From Flavobacterium indicum GPTSA100-9 = DSM 17447 (GTDB taxonomy: Bacteria > Bacteroidota > Bacteroidia > Flavobacteriales > Flavobacteriaceae): a stretch of 64,000 bases of DNA. Within the stretch, counting starts at the first letter, position 1; every line of letters begins with the position of its first letter. Below are positions 36,169 through 48,963 of this stretch, in pieces. The DNA is taken from positions 2,232,001 to 2,296,000 of the forward strand of contig NC_017025.1 in assembly GCF_000455605.1 (NCBI RefSeq), written 5' to 3'. The notes under the pieces are model-generated. The model was not told the origin of the DNA. It saw nothing but the letters and a program-made list of their open reading frames with translations, and did not search any database. Made by a program: the position numbers and the translations under genes.

Positions 36169-36957
36169 ATGGAAGAACAATTAGTACGTATCAATAAATT
36201 TTTATCCGAATCTGGATTTTGTTCTAGAAGAGAAGCGGACAAATTATTAGAACAAGGCCGAATTACCATAAATGGAAAACTTCCTGAATTAGGCACTAAA
36301 GTTGCTCCAGGTGATGAAGTTCGAGTAAACGGAAAATTAGTAACTAATGCCAATAAAAAACACATTTACTTGGCTTTTCACAAACCTGTTGGCATAGAAT
36401 GTACCACGAATCAAAAAATCAAAGACAATATTGTTGACTACATTGCCTATCCTGAACGAATTTTTCCTATTGGAAGACTCGATAAAGCAAGTGAGGGATT
36501 AATTTTTATGACGAGTGATGGTGATATTGTAAACAAAATTCTTCGAGCAAGAAACAATCACGAAAAAGAATACATTGTTACTGTTGATCATCCTATTACC
36601 GATGAATTTATACAACGCATGAGTAATGGATTACCAATTTTAGATACCATTACAAAAAAATGTAAAGTTGAAAAAATAAGTCAGTTTGTATTTAGAATTA
36701 TACTTACTCAAGGTTTGAATAGACAAATTCGACGTATGTGTGACTATTTGAATTATGAAGTTACTGCATTAAAAAGAATTCGAATTATTAATATTACATT
36801 AGATGTTCCTGTTGGTAAATACCGACACTTAACAGAACAAGAAATTAAACAATTAAACGATTTAATTGCACCGTCTAGCAAAACTGAAGAAGCAAGTATA
36901 CCTAAAAACAAAAAAACAAATTACGGAAGTAGAAATTACGACAAAAGAAATCGATAA
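36169..36957 (+). CDS. rluF: 23S rRNA pseudouridine synthase, RluF type
   Basis: This 262-residue enzyme converts a uridine of 23S rRNA to pseudouridine. An S4 RNA-binding domain (VRINKFLSESGFCSRREADKLLEQGRI, in part) is followed by the catalytic motif IGRLDKASEGLIFMTSDG with the essential Asp. RARNNHEKEYIVTVDHPIT and TKKCKVEKISQFVFRIILTQG are much closer to RluF (U2604) than to RluB or RluE, hence the name. The C-terminal tail is Lys- and Asn-rich. The next gene starts 1 bp after its stop. The start is supported by the S4 domain beginning within ten residues. Confidence 0.88.
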   Translation: MEEQLVRINKFLSESGFCSRREADKLLEQGRITINGKLPELGTKVAPGDEVRVNGKLVTNANKKHIYLAFHKPVGIECTTNQKIKDNIVDYIAYPERIFPIGRLDKASEGLIFMTSDGDIVNKILRARNNHEKEYIVTVDHPITDEFIQRMSNGLPILDTITKKCKVEKISQFVFRIILTQGLNRQIRRMCDYLNYEVTALKRIRIINITLDVPVGKYRHLTEQEIKQLNDLIAPSSKTEEASIPKNKKTNYGSRNYDKRNR

Positions 36958-36958
36958 A

Positions 36959-37441
36959 ATGAATAAAAAAGATATAAACTTTGAAGTTGAACGCTTTTTA
37001 AAAGGCAATTATCAAAAAAGTGTTGCGTTAGAATTATTAAGAAAAGACGGCTTTTCTGAAGAAGAAATTCAACAACACGCCCATAAATTTGATCAATTAA
37101 GAAAAAATCCAGATAATAGTTTATCCTATTTTCCTCCTTTTCTATTTTTGGTTTTAGCAAGCATTACTTCTTTAACTTTAACCTTAAAAGAAGAAATCGA
37201 TTTTAAACCATTTTTTTTGGTATTGTTTTTATTTACAATAACCACAACTTATTTTTTTAGCAAGAAAAACAAAACAGCAATAATCGCTACTGCTTTTTTA
37301 ACGATTTTATCCATGCTACTCTTAGTTTATTTGTATATCATTTCATTTTTAGGATTAGGAAAACTACTATTGATTGAATTATTTTTAATATTAGCTTTGT
37401 TTTCTGTGAAACGGTTTTATACTAAAATCGCTAAAAGCTAA
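36959..37441 (+). CDS. Small four-helix membrane protein of unknown function
   Basis: This 160-residue protein has a soluble N-terminus of about 55 residues (NFEVERFLKGNYQKSVALELL, with DGFSEEEIQQHAHKFDQL resembling a small helical domain), followed by four hydrophobic segments (about residues 60-77, 82-100, 106-128, 131-150) and a basic tail. I do not recognise a named family. The ATG chosen lies 1 bp after the rluF stop; an upstream in-frame start inside rluF would be a shadow. It is the last + strand gene before the accessory region and has no visible terminator. Confidence 0.72.
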   Translation: MNKKDINFEVERFLKGNYQKSVALELLRKDGFSEEEIQQHAHKFDQLRKNPDNSLSYFPPFLFLVLASITSLTLTLKEEIDFKPFFLVLFLFTITTTYFFSKKNKTAIIATAFLTILSMLLLVYLYIISFLGLGKLLLIELFLILALFSVKRFYTKIAKS

Positions 37442-37466
37442 TTGTACTCGGAATTCAATAAAATAG

Positions 37467-38561
37467 CTATCCGTTTATTAAATCTTGCAAACCATAGTAT
37501 TGAATTGCTTTTTGTTTTAAGGGATTAGTGCTCCAATCTTCCCATTTATTAGAATAGGGATTATAACCGCATTTTAATGGTTTAGACAAATCTATGTCTT
37601 CTTTAAAATGAGTCCGTTCGGTGTAAGCCCTACAATCTGTACAAATATGACGAAACTCACAGTCTTTACATACTTGCACCTCATCTTTACTAACACTCCA
37701 GTATTTTTTAAAATCTGGATGATTAATTGCTTCTATTAATGTTGTTTTACTGATGTTTCCAAAATGCTGAAGCATAGAGGGACAATTACGAATATATCCC
37801 TCTTTATCAATAGAAACTTTAAGATTCAAGCAAGAATTAAATTTTTGAGATTCAGAAATTAGCTTTAATGATGGATTTAAATATTCTAAAGAAACAATTC
37901 CGCAATTGTGTTCATTTATTATATTCTTTGTTTTTAACACTACATGACCTCTTTTGTAGAATAAGTCATTATAAGTAACCTCATTAGGTGCATTATATAA
38001 CAGTAAGGTATCCAGTCTTTGATTTTCAAAAAACAGAGGTTTAATGTCATCAATAGTAAATTCTTCATAAAATGGAGCTATAATGCTAATTGATTTAATT
38101 CTTGATTTATGAATCCTAAACAATTTGATACATTCCTCTATTTCATTTAAAGTGATTTCCTTGTAAAATCTCAATTGCAAATAAGAACATTTTAGAATTT
38201 CAAATTGATCTAGCAAAGAATTCAAGTCATGCTTAATTAAGTCAAAATCTACAATCACATTCGTTATTTTTGCATTTGAAAAAAAATCTAATTGAATTTT
38301 TGGAAAAAAATCTATAGTATCATTAAAAAAGACCAATTTATTTTCAATTAAAAAATGAAAGTATTCATCAATAATATCATCAAATTCATTATTGAATTTT
38401 TCTTTAATAGCACTAATTTTAAAGCCGTTATACTTACTTAAAATCTCATACAAACCATTAGGAATATAAAAATAGCTTTTGTTTTGCGTATCACTTATTA
38501 TACTTCTATTATAACCTTTTGTTAAAATACAATCTGAAAATAAAATTACATTACTTTCCAT
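37467..38561 (-). CDS. Grasp-with-spasm SPASM-domain peptide maturase (no radical-SAM motif)
   Basis: This 364-residue protein starts at an ATG giving ESNVILFSDCILTKGYNRS and has a short N-terminal domain with NKSYFYIPNGLYEIL. Its middle part has the strand/helix rhythm of a radical-SAM barrel, but the CxxxCxxC motif is missing. The C-terminus is a SPASM domain: NCPSMLQHFGNI, the cysteine cluster CKDCEFRHICTDC and a final KPLKCGYNPYSNKWEDW. This layout matches the SPASM proteins of the grasp-with-spasm RiPP systems of Bacteroidota. It probably binds the precursor peptide and iron-sulfur clusters rather than making a 5'-deoxyadenosyl radical. It is the last gene of the locus, 146 bp behind the ATP-grasp gene. 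Confidence 0.8.
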   Translation of the reverse strand: MESNVILFSDCILTKGYNRSIISDTQNKSYFYIPNGLYEILSKYNGFKISAIKEKFNNEFDDIIDEYFHFLIENKLVFFNDTIDFFPKIQLDFFSNAKITNVIVDFDLIKHDLNSLLDQFEILKCSYLQLRFYKEITLNEIEECIKLFRIHKSRIKSISIIAPFYEEFTIDDIKPLFFENQRLDTLLLYNAPNEVTYNDLFYKRGHVVLKTKNIINEHNCGIVSLEYLNPSLKLISESQKFNSCLNLKVSIDKEGYIRNCPSMLQHFGNISKTTLIEAINHPDFKKYWSVSKDEVQVCKDCEFRHICTDCRAYTERTHFKEDIDLSKPLKCGYNPYSNKWEDWSTNPLKQKAIQYYGLQDLING

Positions 38562-38707
38562 CAATTTATAAAATTTTAGAAATTGGTTTGTAAAATGTTT
38601 TAGTAATATTTTTAGAATTTTGATACCCCTTAATATCGATTAAATTACTAAAGACTTTATTTTGATTGGATTCTTTTATTTTTTCTAATTTTAACCCATT
38701 ATGCACA

Positions 38708-39646
38708 TTAACTGGATGCCTCATACTTCAATTCTAATTTTTTAGCAATAATCTTTTCTAAATAATAATTACACTTATTATTAATAAAACTTATTTGTCC
38801 GGTTGGATTTAATTCTAAAAAATAAAACTCACCCGCTGAGAAAAGTAAGTCAATGGACCCATAATTTAGATTAAAAAAATCAAATAATTTAAGCAACTTA
38901 TGTTTTATAGTATTAGGCAATTTAAACGGAATAATTCTCAAGTTTTTCATGTCTCTAAAACCACTTCTACAATCCACATAATTATTATAATCATGAATTG
39001 ATGCCGAAAATAATTCTCCATCAATATTTATTACTCGAATTTCAAATTCAGAAATTATTCGTTCTTGAAAAAAAGATAAAGCAAAATTATCTGGAAGTTT
39101 GTTTAAAATTTCTTCCGTAATTTCAAAAGTTAAATTAAAATTATACTCATAATTCTCATCTTCATAAAAAAAATCATCTAATATTCGTTTACAAATAATT
39201 CCATTTTTGTCTTTAAATGAATTATAAAATTCAGATAATTTAGCTTTTGAATCTACTATTAATGTTTCGGGAATTTTAAGACCTTGCTTTTTTGCTTCCA
39301 GCATTACATCGAGTCTATTTATTTTAAAATCGGAATAACGCGAGCCTAGTTTATATACTCTTTTTTGCAGTAAATAACTATCAAAAAGCACCTCAAAACA
39401 CTTTCTTTCATATAAACTACCAACACCACGTATACCACCCCCATTAAACCAAATTGCATTTATATCTTGAAAATTAATTTCGTCACAATAATCCGTTTTA
39501 ACTCTAAAGTTTTCCGATGTATTTTCAAAACTAATTTGCTCAACTTGTACCAAATTAGATTCATTAATTCTAATGAACTTAACATTCAAAAAATCGATTA
39601 CATTATTAATAAAATCATCAACATCTTTACTGTAAATCAATATCAT
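38708..39646 (-). CDS. Grasp-with-spasm ATP-grasp peptide maturase
   Basis: This 312-residue protein has the ATP-grasp fold: an N-terminal domain (ILIYSKDVDDFINNVIDFL; NAIWFNGGGIRGVG), a central part with GIICKRILDD and SFFQERIISEFEIRVINIDG that binds ATP, and the metal/ATP site YGSIDLLFSAGEFYFLELNP with LNPTGQ. These features resemble MvdC/MvdD-type ligases that form ester or amide bonds between side chains of a precursor peptide. Unlike D-Ala ligase-type relatives it has no standalone substrate domain. It lies 8 bp downstream of the secreted-protein gene in the same transcript and is the probable cyclising enzyme of the locus. Confidence 0.83.
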   Translation of the reverse strand: MILIYSKDVDDFINNVIDFLNVKFIRINESNLVQVEQISFENTSENFRVKTDYCDEINFQDINAIWFNGGGIRGVGSLYERKCFEVLFDSYLLQKRVYKLGSRYSDFKINRLDVMLEAKKQGLKIPETLIVDSKAKLSEFYNSFKDKNGIICKRILDDFFYEDENYEYNFNLTFEITEEILNKLPDNFALSFFQERIISEFEIRVINIDGELFSASIHDYNNYVDCRSGFRDMKNLRIIPFKLPNTIKHKLLKLFDFFNLNYGSIDLLFSAGEFYFLELNPTGQISFINNKCNYYLEKIIAKKLELKYEASS

Positions 39647-39654
39647 ACTTAAAT

Positions 39655-41400
39655 CTATTTATCATAAAACTCCCAATCATCAGAAAGTTTCAAAACATAC
39701 GTAAAATTATTTTCGTAATAATTATCAAAGTCTTCCGGATTATCTTTATTGTATTCTGAAATAATATAATTATCCGTATGAATAAAAAAATGATGTGGAT
39801 TATTGAAAATGAATTTCATTTTCCTTACTGCAAATTCATTTATACCACACGAATTAGAATGGTATAAATTCCCCTTATAAATATGAAAACAAGAGTTATA
39901 ATAAAAATTATAAATTTGACTTCTTTTGTTATCATGTTCTAACTTTTTTTCACTAGCACTTAAAAATTCTTCTAATTTTTCCAAATTTTTTGGTTGTTTT
40001 TGTATTGCATGTCTAAAGAGTACATGGAATTCAGGAGAAATCATCATGATCGTATCATTTATAGTATAAACTCCAATTTTTTCTTCTGTTGGATACCCTT
40101 CTTCTTTCAATAATGAAATTAATTTATCTGAAACTCGATCTGTGGTTTCAAATAATACTCTAGAATCTTTCCTATTGGCTAGTCCATAATCCGCTTGATC
40201 TTCATCAACCAATTTCTCTAATTCCGATTTCAATTTTATGTTTCTGTTTTTCTGAAATTCATTATAAATCGAATCATAGGTAATACTAAAACGGTTCCAT
40301 TGCTTTTGTTTTTTTAGCGAAATGAAAACTTTTGAATTAAAATAATTAATACTAATACCTTTATTCGCTAATTTTTCTGCCCATAAAAATGCGTTATTAT
40401 AATCTCTAGAAAATAGTGCACATCGAATAGCATTATGAATATCTCGTGCAAAAATGACATTGTATTTTTTATTTAATAAGGCATACTGTTCCTTTGCTTT
40501 AGCATATTGTCGCAACACAATATAATTTTCAGCTTCCTCAGTATAAAAATAATAATCTTGCTTTCTTTCTTTTATTTTATCTTTATCAGCTAATACTATA
40601 TTATCTTTAATAAGTACTTTATAGGCGGGCAACTCTTTTTTATTTACTTTTTTTCTCTTATTTTTTTTTGGACTATACACCATTGAACCGATGTCAAAAA
40701 TTTCTGCATAGCAACCAATATCACCTAAAGCTAATAAAGAATTGGGGGTAACTTTACCTTGAATTTTAAAATAGCGTTTACCTTGAGATGCAGTTTTATA
40801 ATGCGCGCTATGTTTAAAATAAAAAGCTGGAAAAGTATCTAAAACAGTAGTATTAGAAACATCTTTGCCTTTATATTTTACCTCAATTTTTTCTTCATTA
40901 ACAACTTTATTGTAATAATGATAAACAAAAGTATCCCGTTTTACTCCAATAAAAATATCGATATTGTTTTCAATTTTAATTTTTCTTTTTTTCTTTATGT
41001 TACTATTTCCCCATCCACCATTCACGTATCCTTCTATTTCAATTATACTGTCTCTTGGATTAAATACTGCTTTTTCAAAATCAACCTTTAAATACCACTT
41101 TTCGTGATGTTGAAAAATATTAAAAACACTTAAATCCTTGGATTTAAATTGAACACCATAATTCACAAGAGAATTTATTTGTCTATCGTCAACAAAAATG
41201 GATGGATTTAGCGTATCTTTAACCTCCGCAGAATTTAAATATTTATATTTCCACAAATCAAAGGTTTCTTCTGCTATTTTATTTTTATCAAAGTCTGATT
41301 GTAAAAATTTAGTTTTTACAAGCTTATTTTGACCATAAGAAAGATTTGTGTACAGTGTTATGTGAAATATAAAAAATAATAAGAAAGATTTATAAGTCAT
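39655..41400 (-). CDS. Secreted protein of unknown function in the RiPP locus
   Basis: This 581-residue protein has a signal peptide (YKSFLLFFIFHITLYTNLSYGQ) and no lipobox, so it is predicted to reach the periplasm or beyond. Residues of about 30-245 look beta-rich (IIEIEGYVNGGWGNSNIKKKRKIKI region); residues of about 285-410 are TPR-like (YYFYTEEAENYIVLRQYAKA, AIRCALFSRDYNNAFLWAEKL). A segment LVDEDQADYG near residue 400 is reminiscent of a DQ motif seen in some Bacteroidota hypotheticals, but this is weak. The last part has IYNFYYNSCFHIYKGNLYHSNSCG with two Cys pairs. No family is recognised. Seven TTAAAA hexamers end 3 bp before its ATG, and the ATP-grasp gene follows 8 bp after its stop. 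Confidence 0.75.
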   Translation of the reverse strand: MTYKSFLLFFIFHITLYTNLSYGQNKLVKTKFLQSDFDKNKIAEETFDLWKYKYLNSAEVKDTLNPSIFVDDRQINSLVNYGVQFKSKDLSVFNIFQHHEKWYLKVDFEKAVFNPRDSIIEIEGYVNGGWGNSNIKKKRKIKIENNIDIFIGVKRDTFVYHYYNKVVNEEKIEVKYKGKDVSNTTVLDTFPAFYFKHSAHYKTASQGKRYFKIQGKVTPNSLLALGDIGCYAEIFDIGSMVYSPKKNKRKKVNKKELPAYKVLIKDNIVLADKDKIKERKQDYYFYTEEAENYIVLRQYAKAKEQYALLNKKYNVIFARDIHNAIRCALFSRDYNNAFLWAEKLANKGISINYFNSKVFISLKKQKQWNRFSITYDSIYNEFQKNRNIKLKSELEKLVDEDQADYGLANRKDSRVLFETTDRVSDKLISLLKEEGYPTEEKIGVYTINDTIMMISPEFHVLFRHAIQKQPKNLEKLEEFLSASEKKLEHDNKRSQIYNFYYNSCFHIYKGNLYHSNSCGINEFAVRKMKFIFNNPHHFFIHTDNYIISEYNKDNPEDFDNYYENNFTYVLKLSDDWEFYDK

Positions 41401-41403
41401 CAA

Positions 41404-41445
41404 TTTTAATTTTAATTTTAATTTTAATTTTAATTTTAATTTTAA
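41404..41445. repeat. Seven tandem TTTTAA hexamers (TTAAAA on the coding strand)
   Basis: Seven perfect copies of a 6-bp unit lie in the leader of the secreted-protein gene, beginning 3 bp upstream of its ATG (41400) and ending just downstream of the precursor-peptide terminator. Confidence 0.95.
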
Positions 41446-41449
41446 TTAT

Positions 41450-41482
41450 TAATAAAAACAAACCTAAATTTTAGGTTTGTTT
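41450..41482 (-). terminator. Terminator between precursor peptide and downstream genes
   Basis: Inverted repeat AAACAAACCTAAA / TTTAGGTTTGTTT is followed on the - strand by TTTTTATT. It starts about 20 bp after the precursor stop codon. Partial read-through here would give more precursor than maturase mRNA, as is usual for RiPP loci. Confidence 0.75.
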
Positions 41483-41502
41483 ATTTTGATATACTTTAAT
41501 TA

Positions 41503-41787
41503 TTAAAGTCCAATACAATTTGCGGGATTAATTTCATACATATTACTTCTATCGTGATATGTGGTATAAGTAGTTCCATCTGAATTTGTTCGAATTACAT
41601 CATATCCATAATCAATATGATAGACTCCAGTAGGGTTTGATGAATTGAGACCTGGACCACAACCTGAACCTGCAGGAGTAACTGTATTTCTAGCAGCATC
41701 AATTAAACCTCCGTTTAAAACAGACATTTGTTCATTATCCATTTTAGCATCTAAAAAATTTTGCAATTTTAAACTTTCTAACTTCAT
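41503..41787 (-). CDS. Grasp-with-spasm type RiPP precursor peptide
   Basis: This 94-residue peptide has a 27-residue leader starting MKLESLKLQNFLDAKM and ending in the double-glycine motif SVLNGG, then a 67-residue core. The core has GSGCGPGLNSSNPTG, a middle part rich in Asp, Tyr and Thr (IDYGYDVIRTNSDGTTYTTY) and the ending NPANCIGL. Thr/Ser and Asp/Glu side chains are what ATP-grasp ligases join in graspetides. The open frame continues to an ATG at 41838 and a TTG at 41868, but the shorter form matches the normal leader. A -7 box about 105 bp upstream and a terminator just behind bracket it. No GG-cleaving peptidase or exporter gene is in the window. Confidence 0.8.
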   Translation of the reverse strand: MKLESLKLQNFLDAKMDNEQMSVLNGGLIDAARNTVTPAGSGCGPGLNSSNPTGVYHIDYGYDVIRTNSDGTTYTTYHDRSNMYEINPANCIGL

Positions 41788-41891
41788 TTTTGTACATTTA
41801 AGTATTAAACATTTTTTTAAACGATCTAAACTTATCATTTGTATCACCTGTGCACTGGTTTCAAACAAAAAATAGTCCTTTGTTCATGTTT

Positions 41892-41899
41892 CAAAACTA
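41892..41899 (-). promoter_or_regulatory. -7 box upstream of the precursor peptide gene
   Basis: TAGTTTTG on the - strand matches TANNTTTG, 105 bp before the preferred ATG and just downstream of the XRE-family regulator gene. No -33 box. The space between it and the regulator gene is where the regulator could bind. Confidence 0.4.
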
Positions 41900-41940
41900 A
41901 GATGAATTTTTATTAATCTAGAAGTTAAAAGTGTACTATT

Positions 41941-42240
41941 TTACACCATTTTAGTTTGCTTTTCTCTTATTTCGCAGATTAATTGTTTAACTTGATCTAA
42001 TAAATCGTTTAAGTGAAGTAGTACCTCATCACTTTCAACATCATTATTTTCTTCAAACCAATAAGTCATTTTTACATTATAAAATTGGGAGAGTTTATTT
42101 AAATTATCAAAAGTTGGAATACTTTCTGCAGCTTCCCATTTACGTAAAGTAGTTTTAGAAATGCCGATTTCATCAGCAACATATTCTTGAGAGAATCTAA
42201 ATTGTTTGCGTAGTTGTAGTAGTTTGAGACCAATTTTCAT
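41941..42240 (-). CDS. XRE-family helix-turn-helix regulator
   Basis: This 99-residue protein has a classical Cro/C1-type helix-turn-helix: LLQLRKQFRFSQEYVADEIGISKTTLRKWE in parts, with VADEIG before the turn and TLRKWEAAESIPTFDNLNKL as the recognition and support helices. A C-terminal helical tail of about 35 residues (ESDEVLLHLNDLLDQVKQLI) probably dimerises it. It lies 153 bp upstream of the precursor start, in the same direction, and could regulate the RiPP locus, but no operator is recognised. XRE regulators also sit next to toxin-antitoxin pairs; no toxin gene is adjacent. Confidence 0.85.
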   Translation of the reverse strand: MKIGLKLLQLRKQFRFSQEYVADEIGISKTTLRKWEAAESIPTFDNLNKLSQFYNVKMTYWFEENNDVESDEVLLHLNDLLDQVKQLICEIREKQTKMV

Positions 42241-42487
42241 AGTTACATAATTAATTATTTTTACAATGGTTTAGCAAAATCAACCTACCATTAATGTAAT
42301 TTTCTTAAAATAAATAGACTACGAAATCATTATATATTAATTTCATTATTCTTTTAGAAATTGAGGCAGGCTTTATTTGTAATTAAAGTAGTGCAAAATA
42401 AAAATTATCTAACAACAAAAGAACTAATAAACTTGTTAATTTTTTGTTAAAATTATATAAATTTATTACAAAACGCTGTTTAACGAT

Positions 42488-42985
42488 TTAAAACAATGGT
42501 AATTCCATAACATAATCATCCATTACAAAATTATTTCCAATATCGATAACTTCATCTTTAACAATAGTAAAACCAAGCTTCTCATAAAAAAATTGAGCTT
42601 TATTGAATTTATTTACATTTAAGAAAACCCCTTTTTGCAGCTTCCTTTTTGCAGTTTCAATAGCAAAATCTATTAATAGCCTCCCTACTCCTTTACCTTG
42701 ATAAGTATCTAAGACATATATTTTATGAATCTTCAATTGATTTGATTCATTGCAATTTATCTCATAAGCAAGAAAACCAATAGCTTCACTATTATCTTCA
42801 ATTATAAAAAAACATTGACCCTTTTGCAATTGCTGTACTAATGCATCAATACTGTAAAATTTATTTAGCATATATTCTAATTGTTCACTTGATAAAATTT
42901 GACCATAAGCATTTGGCCAAATTTTAAAAGCTAGATCTCTTACAATGCTTAATTGATTATCTTTTAATGGGGATATTGAATACAT
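42488..42985 (-). CDS. GNAT-family N-acetyltransferase
   Basis: This 165-residue protein has the GNAT core: IIEDNSEAIGFLAYEIN (beta strand), KIHKIYVLDTYQGKGVGRLLIDFAI with the acetyl-CoA binding QGKGVG, and VFLNVNKFNKAQFFYEKLGFTIV at the C-terminus. It transfers an acetyl group from acetyl-CoA to an amine, but the substrate is unknown. It is a single gene with its own promoter, whose boxes lie against the terminator of the giant secreted-protein gene on its upstream side. No link to the RiPP locus is evident apart from proximity; 247 bp separate it from the XRE regulator. Confidence 0.85.
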   Translation of the reverse strand: MYSISPLKDNQLSIVRDLAFKIWPNAYGQILSSEQLEYMLNKFYSIDALVQQLQKGQCFFIIEDNSEAIGFLAYEINCNESNQLKIHKIYVLDTYQGKGVGRLLIDFAIETAKRKLQKGVFLNVNKFNKAQFFYEKLGFTIVKDEVIDIGNNFVMDDYVMELPLF

Positions 42986-43065: not shown

Positions 43066-46000
43066 TTATTTTTTGATAACTTTTAATTCTGTGTAATTAT
43101 CATCAGCATAAACTTTTAAGATATAGATAGAAGAAGATAATTCTACCAAATCCACTTGAACTTCATTTGCAAAAGGCTTAATCACTTTAACTAATTTTCC
43201 ACCTAAATCAAATATTTCAATAGTTGTAATTTCTTTACTATATCTAATTGTTAACTGATCAACAACTGGATTAGGATAATACGTTAATTGTGTTAAATCA
43301 AACGATTCTTTTCCTAATACTACGGTTACAGTAACTGCTAATGGAGAACTCACACATGTACCATTTACAGATACTGCATAGTAAGTAGCACCATCCACTA
43401 ACTGTGTTCCTGCTGGAATTGCATTTGTTCCTGCTGCTGCATCAGCTGCTGATGGATACCAAACTATTCCAGTTCCAGTAACAACAATATCCTCTATCGT
43501 TACATCAGAAGCCACACCACCATTAATAGTTTGATTAGAAGCTCCTGTTGGAGTAGTTGCCGTATTTATTGTTAAGTTTAATGTCTCTGTATGACAACCT
43601 ACAGTATTGGTATATGTACCTGAAGTCGTATACGTAGTTCCATTAACAGCCCAAGTGTACGAATCACAAGCCGAAACGGTAGTAGTATTAGTTGTACTTG
43701 GTGTAATTGTTAAGTTTAATGTTTCTGTATGACATCCTACTACATTCGTATACGTACCAGAAGTAGTATATGTAGTTCCATTAACAGCCCATGTGTACGA
43801 ATCACAAGCCGAAGCAGTAGTAGTATTAGTTGTACTTGGTGTAATCGTTAAGTTTAACGTTTCGGTATGACATCCTACTACATTCGTATACGTACCAGAA
43901 GTAGTATACGTAGTGCCATTAACAGCCCAAGTATACGAATCACAAGCCGAAGCGGTAGTAGTATTAGTTGTACTTGGTGTAATCGTTAAGTTTAATGTCT
44001 CTGTATGACAACCTACAGTATTGGTATATGTACCAGAAGTAGTATACGTAGTGCCATTAACAGCCCAAGTATACGAATCACAAGCCGAAGCAGTAGTAGT
44101 ATTAGTTGTACTTGGTGTAATCGTTAAGTTTAACGTTTCGGTTTGACAACCTACAGTATTGGTATATGTACCAGAAGTAGTATATGTAGTTCCATTAACA
44201 GCCCAAGTGTACGAATCACAAGCCGAAGCAGTAGTAGTATTAGTTGTACTTGGTGTAATCGTTAAGTTTAACGTTTCCGTATGACATCCTACTACATTCG
44301 TATACGTTCCAGAAGTAGTATATGTAGTTCCGTTTACAGCCCAAGTATACGAATCACAAGCCGAAGCAGTAGTAGTGTTAGTTGTACTTGGTGTAATCGT
44401 TAAGTTTAACGTTTCCGTATGACATCCTACTACATTCGTATACGTACCAGAAGTAGTATACGTAGTGCCATTAACAGCCCAAGTGTACGAATCACAAGCC
44501 GAAGCAGTAGTAGTGTTTGAAGTACTTGGAACAAATGTGATTACCGAAGTATTTGATTTTGTACAAGCACCTAATGTCGCAGTAGCAGTATAAGTTATAT
44601 TACCTGTAGGTTTAGTATAAACTATATTAGTTGCAGTTCCAGTATATGGAATAGTTGCAGCTGAATCTGTATACAAATCCGTTTGAGGAGACCAAGTAAT
44701 TGGTGCGCTATTAATAACATCAAAAGTTAGATCATTTCTTGAGCTATATGTATAACTTGCTGTTCCTACATAGGCATCAATTGCTGCCGCTGATGTATTA
44801 TCAGCTCTATAAAAAATTGTACTAACAAATGAAGTTGGACTATGTTTTGCGGTGTTATAATTTGAAGCAGCACCAGTGTTATTATTACTATAATTCATTT
44901 CAACAACTAAATTACTTGAACCATCCCAACTAAATGGTGCATCAAAAGTAAAAGTATTTAAACCGGCAACTGGTGTATAATTTGCAGCAGCTTTTACAGT
45001 CGTTAATCCTGTTTCCCAAGCAGTTGTAGAAGCAAAACTTCCAGTTGCTGTATTTTTCATTTTAACTACTAAACTTGATAATGCTACAGAAGTATTGGCA
45101 TTAGCCAAATCTAATTTTATTGAATTAATTTGCGTTCCAGCAACAAAACCTAATGCAGATAATTCAGCTGCCGTATAGATCCATTGTTGTTTAGTTCCCC
45201 CATAAAAATTTTGAAGAGGATTTGGCCCTAAAGTGGCTGTAGTAGAACTACCTGAAGTTGTACTAGCACCAGATCCTAACAATGAAGACACAATATAAGT
45301 TCCTCCAGAAGCATTTAATTGCTGAATAGTTCCAGAACATACTGAGGCAGTTGCTGGAGTTAACACAACATTAGAAGGTATAGGATTAACAGTCACAACT
45401 ATTGTACCTGTTGTTGTACATCCTCCAATCATATCGGTTGCTGTTACAGTATAAGTAGTGGTAGTAGTTGGATTTGCAGTTACACTTGATCCAGTTGTAG
45501 CACTTAAACCTACAGCAGGAGACCAAACATAACTATGATTAGGATCATTTGCACTAGAAACCGTCAAAACAGTTGAATCTCCATTACAAATTGCAACATT
45601 TGGAGAAGTTGTGATCGATTGAGGCCCACTACATAATAAACTTATGGATACATTATCTAGCCCAATATCAAAACTTCCATTATCACCTGTTGCTCTAAAT
45701 CTAATTACAGAGGTAGCAGAAGTAGTTGCTAAATTTGCCTTAACATTTGTCCAACTCGTTACCGCAGTTGTAGGAGCAGCTAGTGCTGGTGTAGTAGTTA
45801 ATGGATTAAAAGTTACCCCTCCATCAGTTGATAATAACAATTCTAATTGATCAATTCCTGTACTAGGAGTAATGTAATAAAATGACAACTCTTTTGAACC
45901 CGGAGCAGATAAATCTACATATAAATCTAAAGAACCTTTATCTCCAGCAGGGAAAACATTAAATGAATGGAATCTTGCAGATCTTGCTCCATTTTGTGCT

Positions 46001-48963
46001 ATTGGGGTGTACGCTCCTCCTGTTGAGGACCATCCACTTAGTGTAGTTGTAGTATTATCTGCCCTCCAAGACGCATCAGCATCTACACCTTTAATCATTC
46101 TCCAAGAATTATTTGGAGCATCTTGTCCTAATGGTGCAGTTACACAAGTTGTAGTCCATACATTTTCAAAGCTTTCAGTTAAAGGAATTGTTGCATAAGT
46201 TGGTGAATTAATAATCACCTGAACTGGATTTGATGTTATTGAAAATCCTGAATTTGTACAAGTTACAATACATCTATACCATGTTGAAGCAATTGGAGTA
46301 ACTGAATAAGTTGAAGAATTGGCACCTCCAATAGTATTATATAAAATATTGTCTGAAGAAGATTCCCATTGATACGTTATATTTAAAACCGAATAAGCAA
46401 CATCTAAAGAAAGAATAGTTGAACTTCCTAAACAGAAATTGTTATTTGAAGTTACCGTATTTGCAGATGCTGGTGTACCAGTACAAACTGGTAAATTTGA
46501 AACACCATTAAATTCATCTGCACCAATATCTGGAGTAGCATTATTTCTAACATCTCCATCATAATCAGTTGTTACTAATGCTATAACGGATGCACCCCCT
46601 TCTACAAAAGTAGGTGTAACTGTGTCTATATGTAAATAAGTTGCATTCGCTCCAGTTGTAGAAACAAATGTCGGATTTTCTTCTACAGACACTTGATCTC
46701 TATTCACCATAAATGCTTTAAGATTAGCAACAGTATTTAGGGAATTTGTAATTGTTGTAGTACCTTCAACATAAGATGAATGATTATTAGTACCAGCAGT
46801 TGGGTTTACCCAAAATAAATTATTATTACTTGTAGTTGCATAATTAGTAGGAACTGTACCTGCTGTACCACTTATTCTTCTTATAGCTGCAGCAACACCA
46901 TTGGTCGCTACATTTAATCCATTTTGAGCTGGAGTAGATAAATTAACAAAAATATTATTTCTAACATCAACAGCTGTAGGTGTTAGGTTAAAATATAAAC
47001 ATGAAGTTCCAAAAGTAGTTACTGAACTTGAAGTTGCGTCTAATCGAACAGTATTATTATAAACATTATTTGTTGTAGCACCAGTTAAATTTATTCCAAT
47101 TACTGCATTTAAACCTGTAGCTGTTGGTGTATATAAATTTCCAACTAAATTATTAAAAACTGTTGCTGTTGTACCTCCAGAAACTGAAATTCCTAATACT
47201 GAAGCACCTGTACCAGTTGAAGTAATGTTAAATAATTTATTTTTAGAAATCGAAATAGTACCAATTGATGGATTTATACCAGTAAAAGCAACACCGGTCC
47301 CAGAATATCCAGAAACATTTTGCAAATTACTTATAGTATTTCCTATAAAGTTTTTATTACCAGCTATTCCAAATTCAACAATAGCTTTTATTGCACCATT
47401 TGCAGTTAAGTTATTTAAAATATTATTTGATATAGTAACATCTACAGATGAAGAAAGACCATAAATACCATCAATTGTACCTGTTGAAGCAGCATTTGAA
47501 TAAGCTAAACCAGCAATAGTATTTCCATTAATAGTAGTAGAAGTTGGACTTGTTATAACCAACCCTCTTAAAGTACCTGTTGTTGCAGAAGATCTTATAA
47601 ATGGACCAATTATATTATTATTAGCATTAAGTGTTACAGGCGAACCACATCCAATTAATATATGTGTCCCAGTACCTGGAATAGCAGAACCTGCACTTAC
47701 ATTATTGTTATTTATATTAGCAGTAGTAGGTGTAGCGCTATTAACAATACCATTTATTGTTGCACCTGTTGCTGAAGCATAATTTAAAACAACAGAATTA
47801 TTGTTTATACTTACAGTATTTGAAGCTGCTGTAGACCCAATACCGTTAGAAATTCCGTCTAATTGTGAAGTTGTACCACCACCAAATAAAGTTATATTGT
47901 TATTGTTAATTGTAATATTTGCAGAAGTACCTGCCCCAGCTAAAATTCCTCTCAAAGTTGAGGGATGATTTACTCCAGAACCATTATTATTATTGATTAT
48001 GTTGTAAGATACATTTGCTCCCCATTGGTTATTAATTCTGATTGCTGCAGCTGGATTTGTTGCACCAGTTGCTCCACCAAAATTCAGTAAAGTATTACCC
48101 GTTAAATTACTTACTCCACCAATATCATTATTTGAATCTGCTAATGTAAAAGGAGTAGCAGCAGCAAAACCATTCATTCCAATTCCTATGTTTCCACCAT
48201 TTATTGTATTTCCATAGATTTTATTATTAGAACTTGCCCCACTTGTCGCAGTAATGGTTAAATTAGTTGTGGCTGCTGTCGCTGTAGAATTAATAAACAT
48301 AATACCAACAGAACCATCAAACATTGGAGTTGTTCCTGCCGCATTATTAACACGTTGCATATTAAAAGTACAGTTTTGTACTGTATTGTTATTACAACCA
48401 TCGGTAGCTGAAGCTTTGTAAAAAACTAGCCCTGCTTCCATAGTAGCAGGATTCGTAGTATTACCATCGGTAAAAGTAACATTTTGGATAGTTAAAAAAT
48501 CTAAACCTGATACTTTAAAAATAGCATCTTGAACTGCAGTCCCCGGCGTTCCGGTTCCAGCTGAATAAGCTTGTAAAATAGAAGTACCTGGTGTACCATT
48601 GATTGTTATGGTATTAGTCACACTCGTAGCTGCATTTAAAGTAGCAGAACCAAGAATAAAACCTAATGTTGGTGCAGTCTCAGTACCTGCTCCTAAATTT
48701 AGCACAACTGGTCCAGTCATAGCTGTTACTGCATTTAAATCTGTAATTGCAGATGCTAAACTAGTATAAGAACCAGCTAATGCAGGAGTAGTATTTGCAT
48801 TACCTGTAACTGTTACTCCAATTTGTGCAAAAGCATTTGAAAAACAAAATATTGTTAAAAAAACAAAAACTATTTTTTTAAAAACACTTTGAATACCAAA
48901 CACTTTATTCTTTTTTGTGAATGCATCACTTAAAGAATTTTCTGAAAAGTAATTTTTACTCAT
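43066..48963 (-). CDS. Giant T9SS-secreted beta-helix protein with tandem repeats
   Basis: This 1965-residue protein has a long-headed signal peptide ending near residue 47 (FVFLTIFCFSNAFAQ). Residues of about 130-800 are rich in Asn and Gly and look like a right-handed beta-helix (FLTIQNVTFTDGN, NNNTVQNCTFNMQ). Residues of about 930-1110 resemble a choice-of-anchor J domain (SWRMIKGVDADASWR...FDIGLDNVSIS), and Ig/PKD-like parts follow (YVWSPAVGLSATTGS). Residues of about 1482-1803 are seven copies of a 46-residue unit with CDSYTWAVNGTTYTTSGTYT and GCHTETLNLTI. The last 75 residues are a type A T9SS sorting domain (LTYYPNPVVDQLTIRY...IYILKVY). It is probably a surface adhesin or cell-envelope protein; no enzyme motif is evident. 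Confidence 0.85.
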   Translation of the reverse strand: MSKNYFSENSLSDAFTKKNKVFGIQSVFKKIVFVFLTIFCFSNAFAQIGVTVTGNANTTPALAGSYTSLASAITDLNAVTAMTGPVVLNLGAGTETAPTLGFILGSATLNAATSVTNTITINGTPGTSILQAYSAGTGTPGTAVQDAIFKVSGLDFLTIQNVTFTDGNTTNPATMEAGLVFYKASATDGCNNNTVQNCTFNMQRVNNAAGTTPMFDGSVGIMFINSTATAATTNLTITATSGASSNNKIYGNTINGGNIGIGMNGFAAATPFTLADSNNDIGGVSNLTGNTLLNFGGATGATNPAAAIRINNQWGANVSYNIINNNNGSGVNHPSTLRGILAGAGTSANITINNNNITLFGGGTTSQLDGISNGIGSTAASNTVSINNNSVVLNYASATGATINGIVNSATPTTANINNNNVSAGSAIPGTGTHILIGCGSPVTLNANNNIIGPFIRSSATTGTLRGLVITSPTSTTINGNTIAGLAYSNAASTGTIDGIYGLSSSVDVTISNNILNNLTANGAIKAIVEFGIAGNKNFIGNTISNLQNVSGYSGTGVAFTGINPSIGTISISKNKLFNITSTGTGASVLGISVSGGTTATVFNNLVGNLYTPTATGLNAVIGINLTGATTNNVYNNTVRLDATSSSVTTFGTSCLYFNLTPTAVDVRNNIFVNLSTPAQNGLNVATNGVAAAIRRISGTAGTVPTNYATTSNNNLFWVNPTAGTNNHSSYVEGTTTITNSLNTVANLKAFMVNRDQVSVEENPTFVSTTGANATYLHIDTVTPTFVEGGASVIALVTTDYDGDVRNNATPDIGADEFNGVSNLPVCTGTPASANTVTSNNNFCLGSSTILSLDVAYSVLNITYQWESSSDNILYNTIGGANSSTYSVTPIASTWYRCIVTCTNSGFSITSNPVQVIINSPTYATIPLTESFENVWTTTCVTAPLGQDAPNNSWRMIKGVDADASWRADNTTTTLSGWSSTGGAYTPIAQNGARSARFHSFNVFPAGDKGSLDLYVDLSAPGSKELSFYYITPSTGIDQLELLLSTDGGVTFNPLTTTPALAAPTTAVTSWTNVKANLATTSATSVIRFRATGDNGSFDIGLDNVSISLLCSGPQSITTSPNVAICNGDSTVLTVSSANDPNHSYVWSPAVGLSATTGSSVTANPTTTTTYTVTATDMIGGCTTTGTIVVTVNPIPSNVVLTPATASVCSGTIQQLNASGGTYIVSSLLGSGASTTSGSSTTATLGPNPLQNFYGGTKQQWIYTAAELSALGFVAGTQINSIKLDLANANTSVALSSLVVKMKNTATGSFASTTAWETGLTTVKAAANYTPVAGLNTFTFDAPFSWDGSSNLVVEMNYSNNNTGAASNYNTAKHSPTSFVSTIFYRADNTSAAAIDAYVGTASYTYSSRNDLTFDVINSAPITWSPQTDLYTDSAATIPYTGTATNIVYTKPTGNITYTATATLGACTKSNTSVITFVPSTSNTTTASACDSYTWAVNGTTYTTSGTYTNVVGCHTETLNLTITPSTTNTTTASACDSYTWAVNGTTYTTSGTYTNVVGCHTETLNLTITPSTTNTTTASACDSYTWAVNGTTYTTSGTYTNTVGCQTETLNLTITPSTTNTTTASACDSYTWAVNGTTYTTSGTYTNTVGCHTETLNLTITPSTTNTTTASACDSYTWAVNGTTYTTSGTYTNVVGCHTETLNLTITPSTTNTTTASACDSYTWAVNGTTYTTSGTYTNVVGCHTETLNLTITPSTTNTTTVSACDSYTWAVNGTTYTTSGTYTNTVGCHTETLNLTINTATTPTGASNQTINGGVASDVTIEDIVVTGTGIVWYPSAADAAAGTNAIPAGTQLVDGATYYAVSVNGTCVSSPLAVTVTVVLGKESFDLTQLTYYPNPVVDQLTIRYSKEITTIEIFDLGGKLVKVIKPFANEVQVDLVELSSSIYILKVYADDNYTELKVIKK
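43556..44520. repeat. Seven tandem 138-bp repeats inside the giant secreted-protein gene
   Basis: The sequence ACAAGCCGAA recurs at 43666, 43804, 43942, 44080, 44218, 44356 and 44494, exactly 138 bp apart. The copies are almost identical at DNA level; the main variation is a TNVVGC versus TNTVGC class switch and His/Gln in the next position. Outer boundaries are approximate. Confidence 0.93.

Follow-up and report, generated by a model that had tools for sequence, protein, structure and literature searches.

Grasp-with-spasm loci pair a gene for an ATP-grasp ligase with one for a SPASM protein, downstream of a gene for a double-glycine (GG) precursor peptide. What does the SPASM protein do in such a locus, and does the ligase work alone? 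We asked this of a cassette on the minus strand, at 37,467-41,787 of a 64,000-nucleotide stretch of Flavobacterium indicum GPTSA100-9 DNA (contig NC_017025.1, positions 2,232,001 to 2,296,000; the whole stretch is called the window below), which encodes, in order, a precursor peptide, a secreted protein, a ligase, a protein of 52 amino acids (aa) and a SPASM protein. The locus is real. It is a variant form of the known grasp-with-spasm locus, whose ligase belongs to a clade apart and whose set of partners is here more closely defined. Judged by its sequences, this small gene set probably cross-links a ribosomally made peptide. The more specific reading, on which we are evenly divided, is that it encodes a graspetide-type pathway for a ribosomally synthesised and post-translationally modified peptide (RiPP), in which the ligase would be a partner-dependent, multi-protein one.

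Gene set, ligase and precursor

An initial annotation of this DNA had named an XRE regulator, the precursor, the secreted protein, the ligase and the SPASM protein, and had taken them for a grasp-with-spasm locus. All five genes lie where it put them, on the minus strand, but it had overlooked the 52-aa gene between those for the ligase and the SPASM protein (Table 1). Its expectation that NCBIfam (TIGRFAM) models would recognise the maturation proteins was borne out in part: the SPASM protein scores 334 bits against TIGR04193, with a cut-off of 175, and the precursor is a marginal match to TIGR04149 (26.1 bits, cut-off 25), but the ligase, for which TIGR04192 is the best model (153.1 bits, 1.1e-44), misses the cut-off of 230, and for this reason we rank the locus as a grasp-with-spasm variant and not as a typical member. 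As a divergent variant, the grasp-with-spasm reading is upheld by the family models together with solved graspetide ligases. The ligase and SPASM genes are adjacent and co-directed, with the GG precursor upstream, and the ligase, small-protein and SPASM genes overlap or nearly abut: the 52-aa gene shares 17 bases with the ligase gene and stops 2 bases short of the SPASM open frame. Gene starts were set at the first ATG, which for the precursor is the ATG at 41,787 (94 aa) and not an upstream TTG.

Grasp-with-spasm loci are common, a scan of named genomes having returned 394 stretches that encode a relative of this SPASM protein; the best 80, all with Bacteroidota names, form our locus set (L numbers). 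Ten of these (L068-L077) have the same secreted protein, ligase and small protein, and come from eight named Flavobacterium strains, one Flavobacterium metagenome-assembled genome and Yeosuana marina. With a further copy in G322, the cassette is found in 11 genomes besides the window, some copies being damaged or cut by a contig end, as in L070, where no precursor is visible. Other genomes repeat the order of precursor, secreted protein, ligase, small protein and SPASM protein, with protein identities of 36-59% and lower values in Yeosuana marina, where the secreted protein reaches 37%; this makes the gene set more than a chance grouping.

The window ligase matches solved graspetide ligases, best 5ig9 (5.8e-19) and then 7m4s, 7mgv and 5ig8 (range 5.8e-19 to 1.4e-9), which we take to be MvdD, AMdnB, CdnC and MvdC. 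Its conserved ATP/metal residues and DxR motif are present, and in a tree of 80 ligases (L081, L119 and L142 dropped) the 11 from the window and L068-L077 fall into one clade (100/100) with a long stem (1.13 changes per column). Nine positions to which we presumptively assign functional roles (K153, Q194, R204, D225, R227, R237, D266, E278 and N280) are kept in all 11 clade ligases and in 68 or 69 of the 69 others. Elsewhere the clade departs from the family, with Asn, Gly, Cys and Ser/Ala in 11/11 members at positions that hold Arg68 (66/69 others), Arg69 (61/69), Glu83 (61/69) and Lys199 (69/69); the aligned 5ig9, 7m4s and 7mgv have Lys at the last of these. Since the active-site positions are conserved while Arg68, Arg69, Glu83 and Lys199 are substituted, the chemistry has probably been kept and the recognition changed, with the roles of the residues presumed. 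The DFR motif is described as critical in graspetide ligases (PMC13097080).

Twelve precursors were compared: those of the window, nine of the ten loci L068-L077, G322 and G052. They share a leader of the form M[KNE]LE[SK]LK...EQ[ML]xxL[NK]G[GD], which in the window reads MKLESLK...EQMSVLNGG, and in 12/12 the core holds [YF]G[YF]D and T-[FYL]-H-[DN]-R (YGYD...TYHDR in the window). Asp63 of YGYD (window numbering) is the sole core acid invariant in all twelve, nearby positions being variable (D/E/N at 59, D/N at 79), and Thr76 of TxH is the only core hydroxyl invariant as a single letter. The presence of one invariant core acid amid a conserved [YF]G[YF]D...TxH[DN]R suggests an Asp-Thr ester in the core.

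The unusual ligase substitutions could also be taken to mean that this is a decaying or non-functional copy, whose ligase family has drifted and whose product is no longer made, and several related loci are indeed broken: the SPASM gene carries an internal deletion in L077/G199 (also L063) and is interrupted in G322 (L060), while G052 (L065) has kept the precursor and secreted protein and lost most of the sequence for the ligase, the small protein and the SPASM protein. We consider decay very improbable for the window, where all the cassette genes are open frames, where the core motif is one that is invariant across the 12 precursors, and where the ligase substitutions are not random decay, because they are fixed in 11/11 clade ligases. 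As a separate observation, the damage in L065 (G052), L060 (G322) and L063/L077 (G199) falls on the SPASM gene or on the three enzyme-side genes, and the precursor and secreted-protein genes stay open.

Table 1. Features of the cassette and the adjoining regulator gene, in window coordinates
Feature	Position	Strand	Basis
Precursor peptide, 94 aa	41503..41787	-	TIGR04149 26.1 bits and 12 homologous precursors
Stem-loop 3' of precursor gene, possible read-through terminator / attenuator	41456..41482	-	12-bp stem, folding
(AATTTT) x 8.5 hexamer repeat, start of secreted-protein gene	41402..41453	no strand	
Secreted protein, 581 aa from ATG	39655..41400	-	conserved in cassettes; profile links to ligase-upstream family and DUF6624
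ATP-grasp ligase, 312 aa, divergent GRASP_w_spasm	38708..39646	-	TIGR04192, PDB 5ig9, residue comparison
Small partner protein, 52 aa, C-terminus FYKPISKIL	38566..38724	-	conserved in cassette loci
SPASM protein, 364 aa from ATG	37467..38561	-	TIGR04193 and Pfam SPASM
XRE gene	41,941-42,240	-	beside cassette

The SPASM protein and its small partner

Grasp-with-spasm SPASM proteins are labelled radical SAM enzymes in PMC8939145, a label that these sequences do not support. The radical-SAM motif CX3CX2C is found in 0/80 relatives of the window protein, whereas CX2CX5CX2C and CX9-15GX4C are found in 80/80, and in the alignment CX3CX2C is seen neither in the window protein nor in its two own-genome paralogues. 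As a positive control, 30 proteins were gathered by means of TIGR04085, together with their loci; 28 of them have the motif, and the two that lack it are a paralogue from this same genome and a piece of 117 aa. On this contrast a radical-SAM enzyme is ruled out. The profile match to radical SAM/SPASM maturases covers the SPASM part only (2.1e-9 over 94 columns, local), and PF04055 is not among the 25 families listed, of 52 Pfam families in all, for the 77 members of the SPASM alignment (L077, L098, L113 and L145 dropped). Nor was a separate partner radical-SAM gene found nearby, a loose form of the motif occurring in 1/555 open reading frames (ORFs) of at least 250 aa in the 80 loci, in L096.

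The window protein does match Pfam SPASM (PF13186, 22.8 bits, cut-off 21.5), as do 72/77 members in all, and eight cysteines are invariant in the 77-row alignment (C221, C245, C261, C299, C302, C308, C311 and C332). It is conceivable, from these features, that catalysis is the task of the SPASM protein too, which as an iron-sulfur enzyme independent of SAM would add a second modification, a redox one (for example of Cys or Tyr), besides the ligase's ester. Eight invariant cysteines suffice for two clusters, for which seven or eight are given in PMC10352776, thioether or carbon-carbon chemistry has been proposed for the SPASM protein (PMC8939145), and 10/12 precursors have at least two core cysteines (two in nine, three in L076). 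We nevertheless judge such a catalyst improbable, given the missing CX3CX2C and the lack of a radical-SAM gene nearby described above, and given that the core has one Cys in L074 and none in L072. The tree of SPASM proteins likewise groups the window with L068-L076 (100/100), but on a stem of 0.36 changes per column against the 1.13 of the ligases. Among solved structures the SPASM profile has three unrelated-looking matches only (E 0.0072 and worse). PHROGs yielded no match better than E 0.06, and those matches were to unknown families.

Aligned with a PqqD profile (29 sequences, 60 columns), residues 21-80 of the SPASM protein gave an hhalign E of 0.0014 at a probability of 17%, compared with 0.054 to 0.63 for seven control segments, which is suggestive of an N-terminal domain like the RiPP recognition element (RRE).

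The small protein has no match in NCBIfam, and is present in the window and in 10/10 loci of this type. A profile of seven clade small proteins, run against 3338 ORFs, found six further loci (L086, L088, L091, L094, L126 and L132; E 2e-7 to 3e-4), and all six matches sit between the ligase and SPASM genes and nowhere else. Small proteins were then sought in all 80 loci by tail patterns, composed after the sequences had been seen: a loose pattern is found in 64/80 loci against 25/2604 other small ORFs of the same loci, and the strict tail [KR][PSH]I[ST][KR] in 55 of the 64 small proteins (clade 10/10, outside 45/54) against 8/2604 control ORFs. Among the 16 loci with no pattern match, several have a related tail by eye (e.g. 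L078, L096 and L145). An LPL-like motif behaves differently, occurring in 39/54 small proteins outside the clade and in 0/10 inside it, and being absent from the window's protein as well; PMC8939145 describes an LPL family whose genes immediately precede those for SPASM proteins, with 'unrelated small proteins' at the same place elsewhere. We read the tail as the common part of these proteins, and the N-terminus as the part that appears to have changed with the ligase.

These counts bear on whether the locus might be an ordinary graspetide one, with ring formation by the ligase alone and with the two other proteins, SPASM and small, having tasks in stability, regulation or export. The ligase has retained its active-site positions, and other characterised graspetide ligases work without such a partner (PMC13097080); on the other side, the small and SPASM genes stand in a fixed order with the ligase, and the small ORF with the tail motif recurs in those 64 of the 80 loci. 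A ligase acting alone strikes us as rather unlikely.

The two halves of the SPASM protein have different nearest relatives. Residues 1-220 of the window protein are nearest to its clade (ranks 1-10 of 80), and residues 271-357 to the two paralogues of its own genome (ranks 1 and 2; 83% and 77%). In F. macrobrachii (L071), two neighbouring SPASM genes encode proteins with 20-47% identity per 30-residue block to about residue 246 and 93-100% thereafter, with a 558-bp DNA stretch that is 92% identical, pointing to gene conversion between them. For 6/11 within-genome pairs, the C-terminal identity is reached by less than 4% of between-genome pairs with like N-terminal identity; the five pairs with no such excess are the window and its L005 paralogue, strain 9AF, two from Kordia and one from Chryseobacterium. 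Shared genus may explain part of this likeness, C-terminal identity averaging 72% in between-genome Flavobacterium pairs and 80% in within-genome pairs. A recent gene conversion of the window's own C-terminus finds no support at synonymous sites, fourfold sites being identical at 6/18 and 6/17 with the own-genome paralogues and at 5/17 and 6/14 with two orthologues; the window protein's ranks nonetheless point to within-genome exchange. More broadly, SPASM proteins of one genome often resemble each other more closely in their C-terminal halves than their N-terminal halves would predict (window, L004, L005, L069, L071, L095 and L104).

Secreted protein, expression and genomic site

The secreted protein has a signal peptide (by eye), a TPR-like middle and a DUF6624-like region, and has no Pfam or NCBIfam match; a profile of the protein had no match among solved structures. 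A profile of its residues 270-500, seeded with ten homologues and the window protein, matched 35/546 proteins at 1e-3. Of these, 31 are encoded immediately before a ligase, in 30 loci that include the ten of the seed, and two elsewhere, the remaining two being lipoproteins from this genome's other grasp-with-spasm loci (3.8e-7 and 7e-4). At convergence there were 82 proteins, 63 of them just upstream of the ligase in 59/80 loci and 17 elsewhere in these loci; at least 600 bases upstream of the ligase were available in 74/80. The link to DUF6624 is slight for the clade seed alone (hhalign E 0.0051, probability 7%) and reaches 7e-30 for the converged family, against 0.22 to 0.83 for six control profiles, the strong score arising only after iteration through homologues upstream of other ligases. 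These profiles place the secreted protein, as a member of larger size, in a TPR/DUF6624-like family found upstream of the ligase, and from its place and lipoprotein signal this family is likely to be 'cluster 23' of PMC8939145. DUF6624 has been reported near other graspetide groups and suggested to be a biosynthetic enzyme (PMC13097080); the signal peptide seen by eye points instead to a role after export. The secreted protein is also encoded in G520, and further TPR/DUF6624-like members were noticed downstream of SPASM genes (L139:8172-9110, L110:8384-8968, L111:8376-8960 and L130:8355-8939).

Between the precursor and secreted-protein genes, a stem-loop was found in 8/8 folded cassettes (L071, L074, G322 and G052 were left unfolded), with z-scores of -1.85 to -5.25. 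The window hairpin, with its 12-bp stem, is the weakest, its z of -1.85 being reached by 7/200 shuffles, whereas z was -1.06 and -0.07 for two stretches of the window folded as controls; a pattern scan returned 2 terminator-like sites, which are the two strands of the window hairpin, against 1.2 expected from shuffles. The stem-loop is a possible read-through terminator or attenuator. It was also observed that the (AATTTT) x 8.5 repeat lies at the start codon of the secreted-protein gene, where changes in its length could alter expression.

The host genome (2.99 Mb, one contig) has two further grasp-with-spasm loci, whose ligases both score above the TIGR04192 cut-off, and it is beside these two that all three of its C39 matches above cut-off lie. 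Their frames measure 733, 751 and 504 aa, and the 504-aa one scores 23.3 bits (cut-off 22). At one of them (L004:1116-2982), a 503-aa protein with C39-like, VKOR and thioredoxin parts was seen, together with a separate GG-type peptide of 103 aa.

Across the genus, the window ligase has matches in 41/398 genomes and a close match in just 7, including the window's own (56-59% besides itself). The cassette is accessory: in the window it is flanked by rluB-like and GNAT genes, and in 3/3 relatives with these two genes close together it is absent, with other cargo or none between them. As its cargo differs among three relatives, this gap (window 36957-42488; L261, L262 and L263) appears to be a variable site. 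The locus has a G+C content of about 23-28%, the adjoining stretches 30-38%. The XRE gene adjoins the cassette, as annotated, but is not a conserved member of it: a search of 12 loci (L060, L065 and L068-L077) gave, below E 1e-3, nothing but distantly related HTH proteins in L069 and L077, both encoded on the other strand. In this genome the XRE gene may nevertheless have a part in regulating the locus. The claim that the window otherwise holds mostly housekeeping genes was followed over about 33-49 kb of it; at 43066-48963 the cassette is adjoined by a gene for a secreted-looking protein of 1965 aa with near-identical tandem repeats (ASACDSYTWAVNGTTYTTSGTYTN...).

Proposed mechanism and relation to known systems

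The partner-dependent pathway that we propose would run as follows. A leaky terminator would part the precursor gene from the others and, by that separation, leave the precursor in excess. The leader would be bound by the SPASM protein, by way of the RRE-like domain at its N-terminus. The ligase would not work alone; the 52-aa protein would tether the SPASM protein to it, docking on the ligase by its variable N-terminal motif and on the SPASM protein by its conserved KPISK tail. The ligase would activate the side chain of the Asp in YGYD and join it to a hydroxyl, most likely that of the invariant Thr of TxHDR and less likely that of a Thr/Ser near the start of the core, giving a product with at least one macrolactone (-18 Da). 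The Fe-S domain of the SPASM protein would have a structural or electron-transfer role and would not act as a radical-SAM catalyst. Cleavage after GG and export of the peptide would be the work of a C39-peptidase transporter whose gene lies elsewhere in the genome, and the secreted TPR/DUF6624-like protein would then act on the exported peptide or protect against it.

Several observations weigh against this scheme. The ligase lies below the TIGR04192 cut-off and has lost Lys199 and Arg68-Arg69, so that its activity or substrate class could have changed. Position 37 of the precursor is also a hydroxyl in 12/12 (Thr in 5, Ser in 7), and the acceptor is to that extent not fixed. The RRE match is weak, at the hhalign probability of 17%, and the 25 Pfam families listed, of 52, for the 77 SPASM proteins include no PqqD model. 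Seven of the 80 loci (L119, L123, L127, L128, L133, L135 and L137) showed no small ORF with a tail of this kind, and 15/54 small proteins outside the clade lack LPL too; the docking scheme is a correlation of motifs, and the ten LPL-less loci, as one clade, may represent one event. Finally, the cassette encodes no exporter, C39 included.

A broader interpretation, tentative and on balance unlikely, is that leader recognition has moved off the enzyme, so that in a three-part machine the peptide would be delivered to a rewired ATP-grasp ligase by two helpers, a 52-residue adaptor and what is left of a radical-SAM maturase (RRE plus SPASM), which would bear a cofactor but have no SAM, with the Fe-S half exchanged between the paralogous pathways of one genome and the recognition half kept pathway-specific. 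What the cassette offers more immediately is three concrete predictions: an Asp ester in the YGYD-TxHDR core, a SPASM protein that cannot be a radical-SAM enzyme, and a near-general small partner for which the C-terminus is a better defining feature than the LPL motif.

In most of its layout the cassette resembles grasp-with-spasm systems (TIGR04192 and TIGR04193; 'branch 5' of PMC8939145), in that its ATP-grasp and SPASM genes are adjacent, a small gene immediately precedes the SPASM gene, the gene for a secreted protein stands ahead of the ligase gene, the precursor is of the GG type and the host belongs to the Bacteroidota. Unlike typical members, it has a ligase under the cut-off in a long-stem clade of its own and a small protein with no LPL; unlike the other two loci of its genome, it has a secreted protein of 581 aa and not of 301 and 310 aa; and unlike the radical SAM enzyme of the PMC8939145 description, its SPASM protein has no radical-SAM motif. 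With radical SAM/SPASM maturases it has in common the C-terminal SPASM domain, and not CX3CX2C. The microviridin and chryseoviridin ligases (5ig9, 7m4s, 7mgv and 5ig8) are homologous to the window ligase, which retains the DxR pair; at position 199, however, 5ig9, 7m4s and 7mgv have Lys where the clade has Ser or Ala. No relation of the precursor core to microviridin was seen, no dedicated comparison having been made, and no paper describing a characterised grasp-with-spasm product was found in the open-licence literature, as excerpted. Among the graspetide groups of PMC13097080, group 14 is SPASM-associated, and the same paper names groups 18, 20, 23 and 42 for DUF6624. A precedent for what we propose from sequence is rosaritide, whose ligase MirB needs a partner, MirC, with a weakly RRE-like N-domain (PMC13097080), although MirC is a predicted PPIase/SurA-like protein from Micromonospora and not a SPASM protein. 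If the partner dependence proposed here is true, the cassette could represent a second kind of partner-dependent graspetide ligase.

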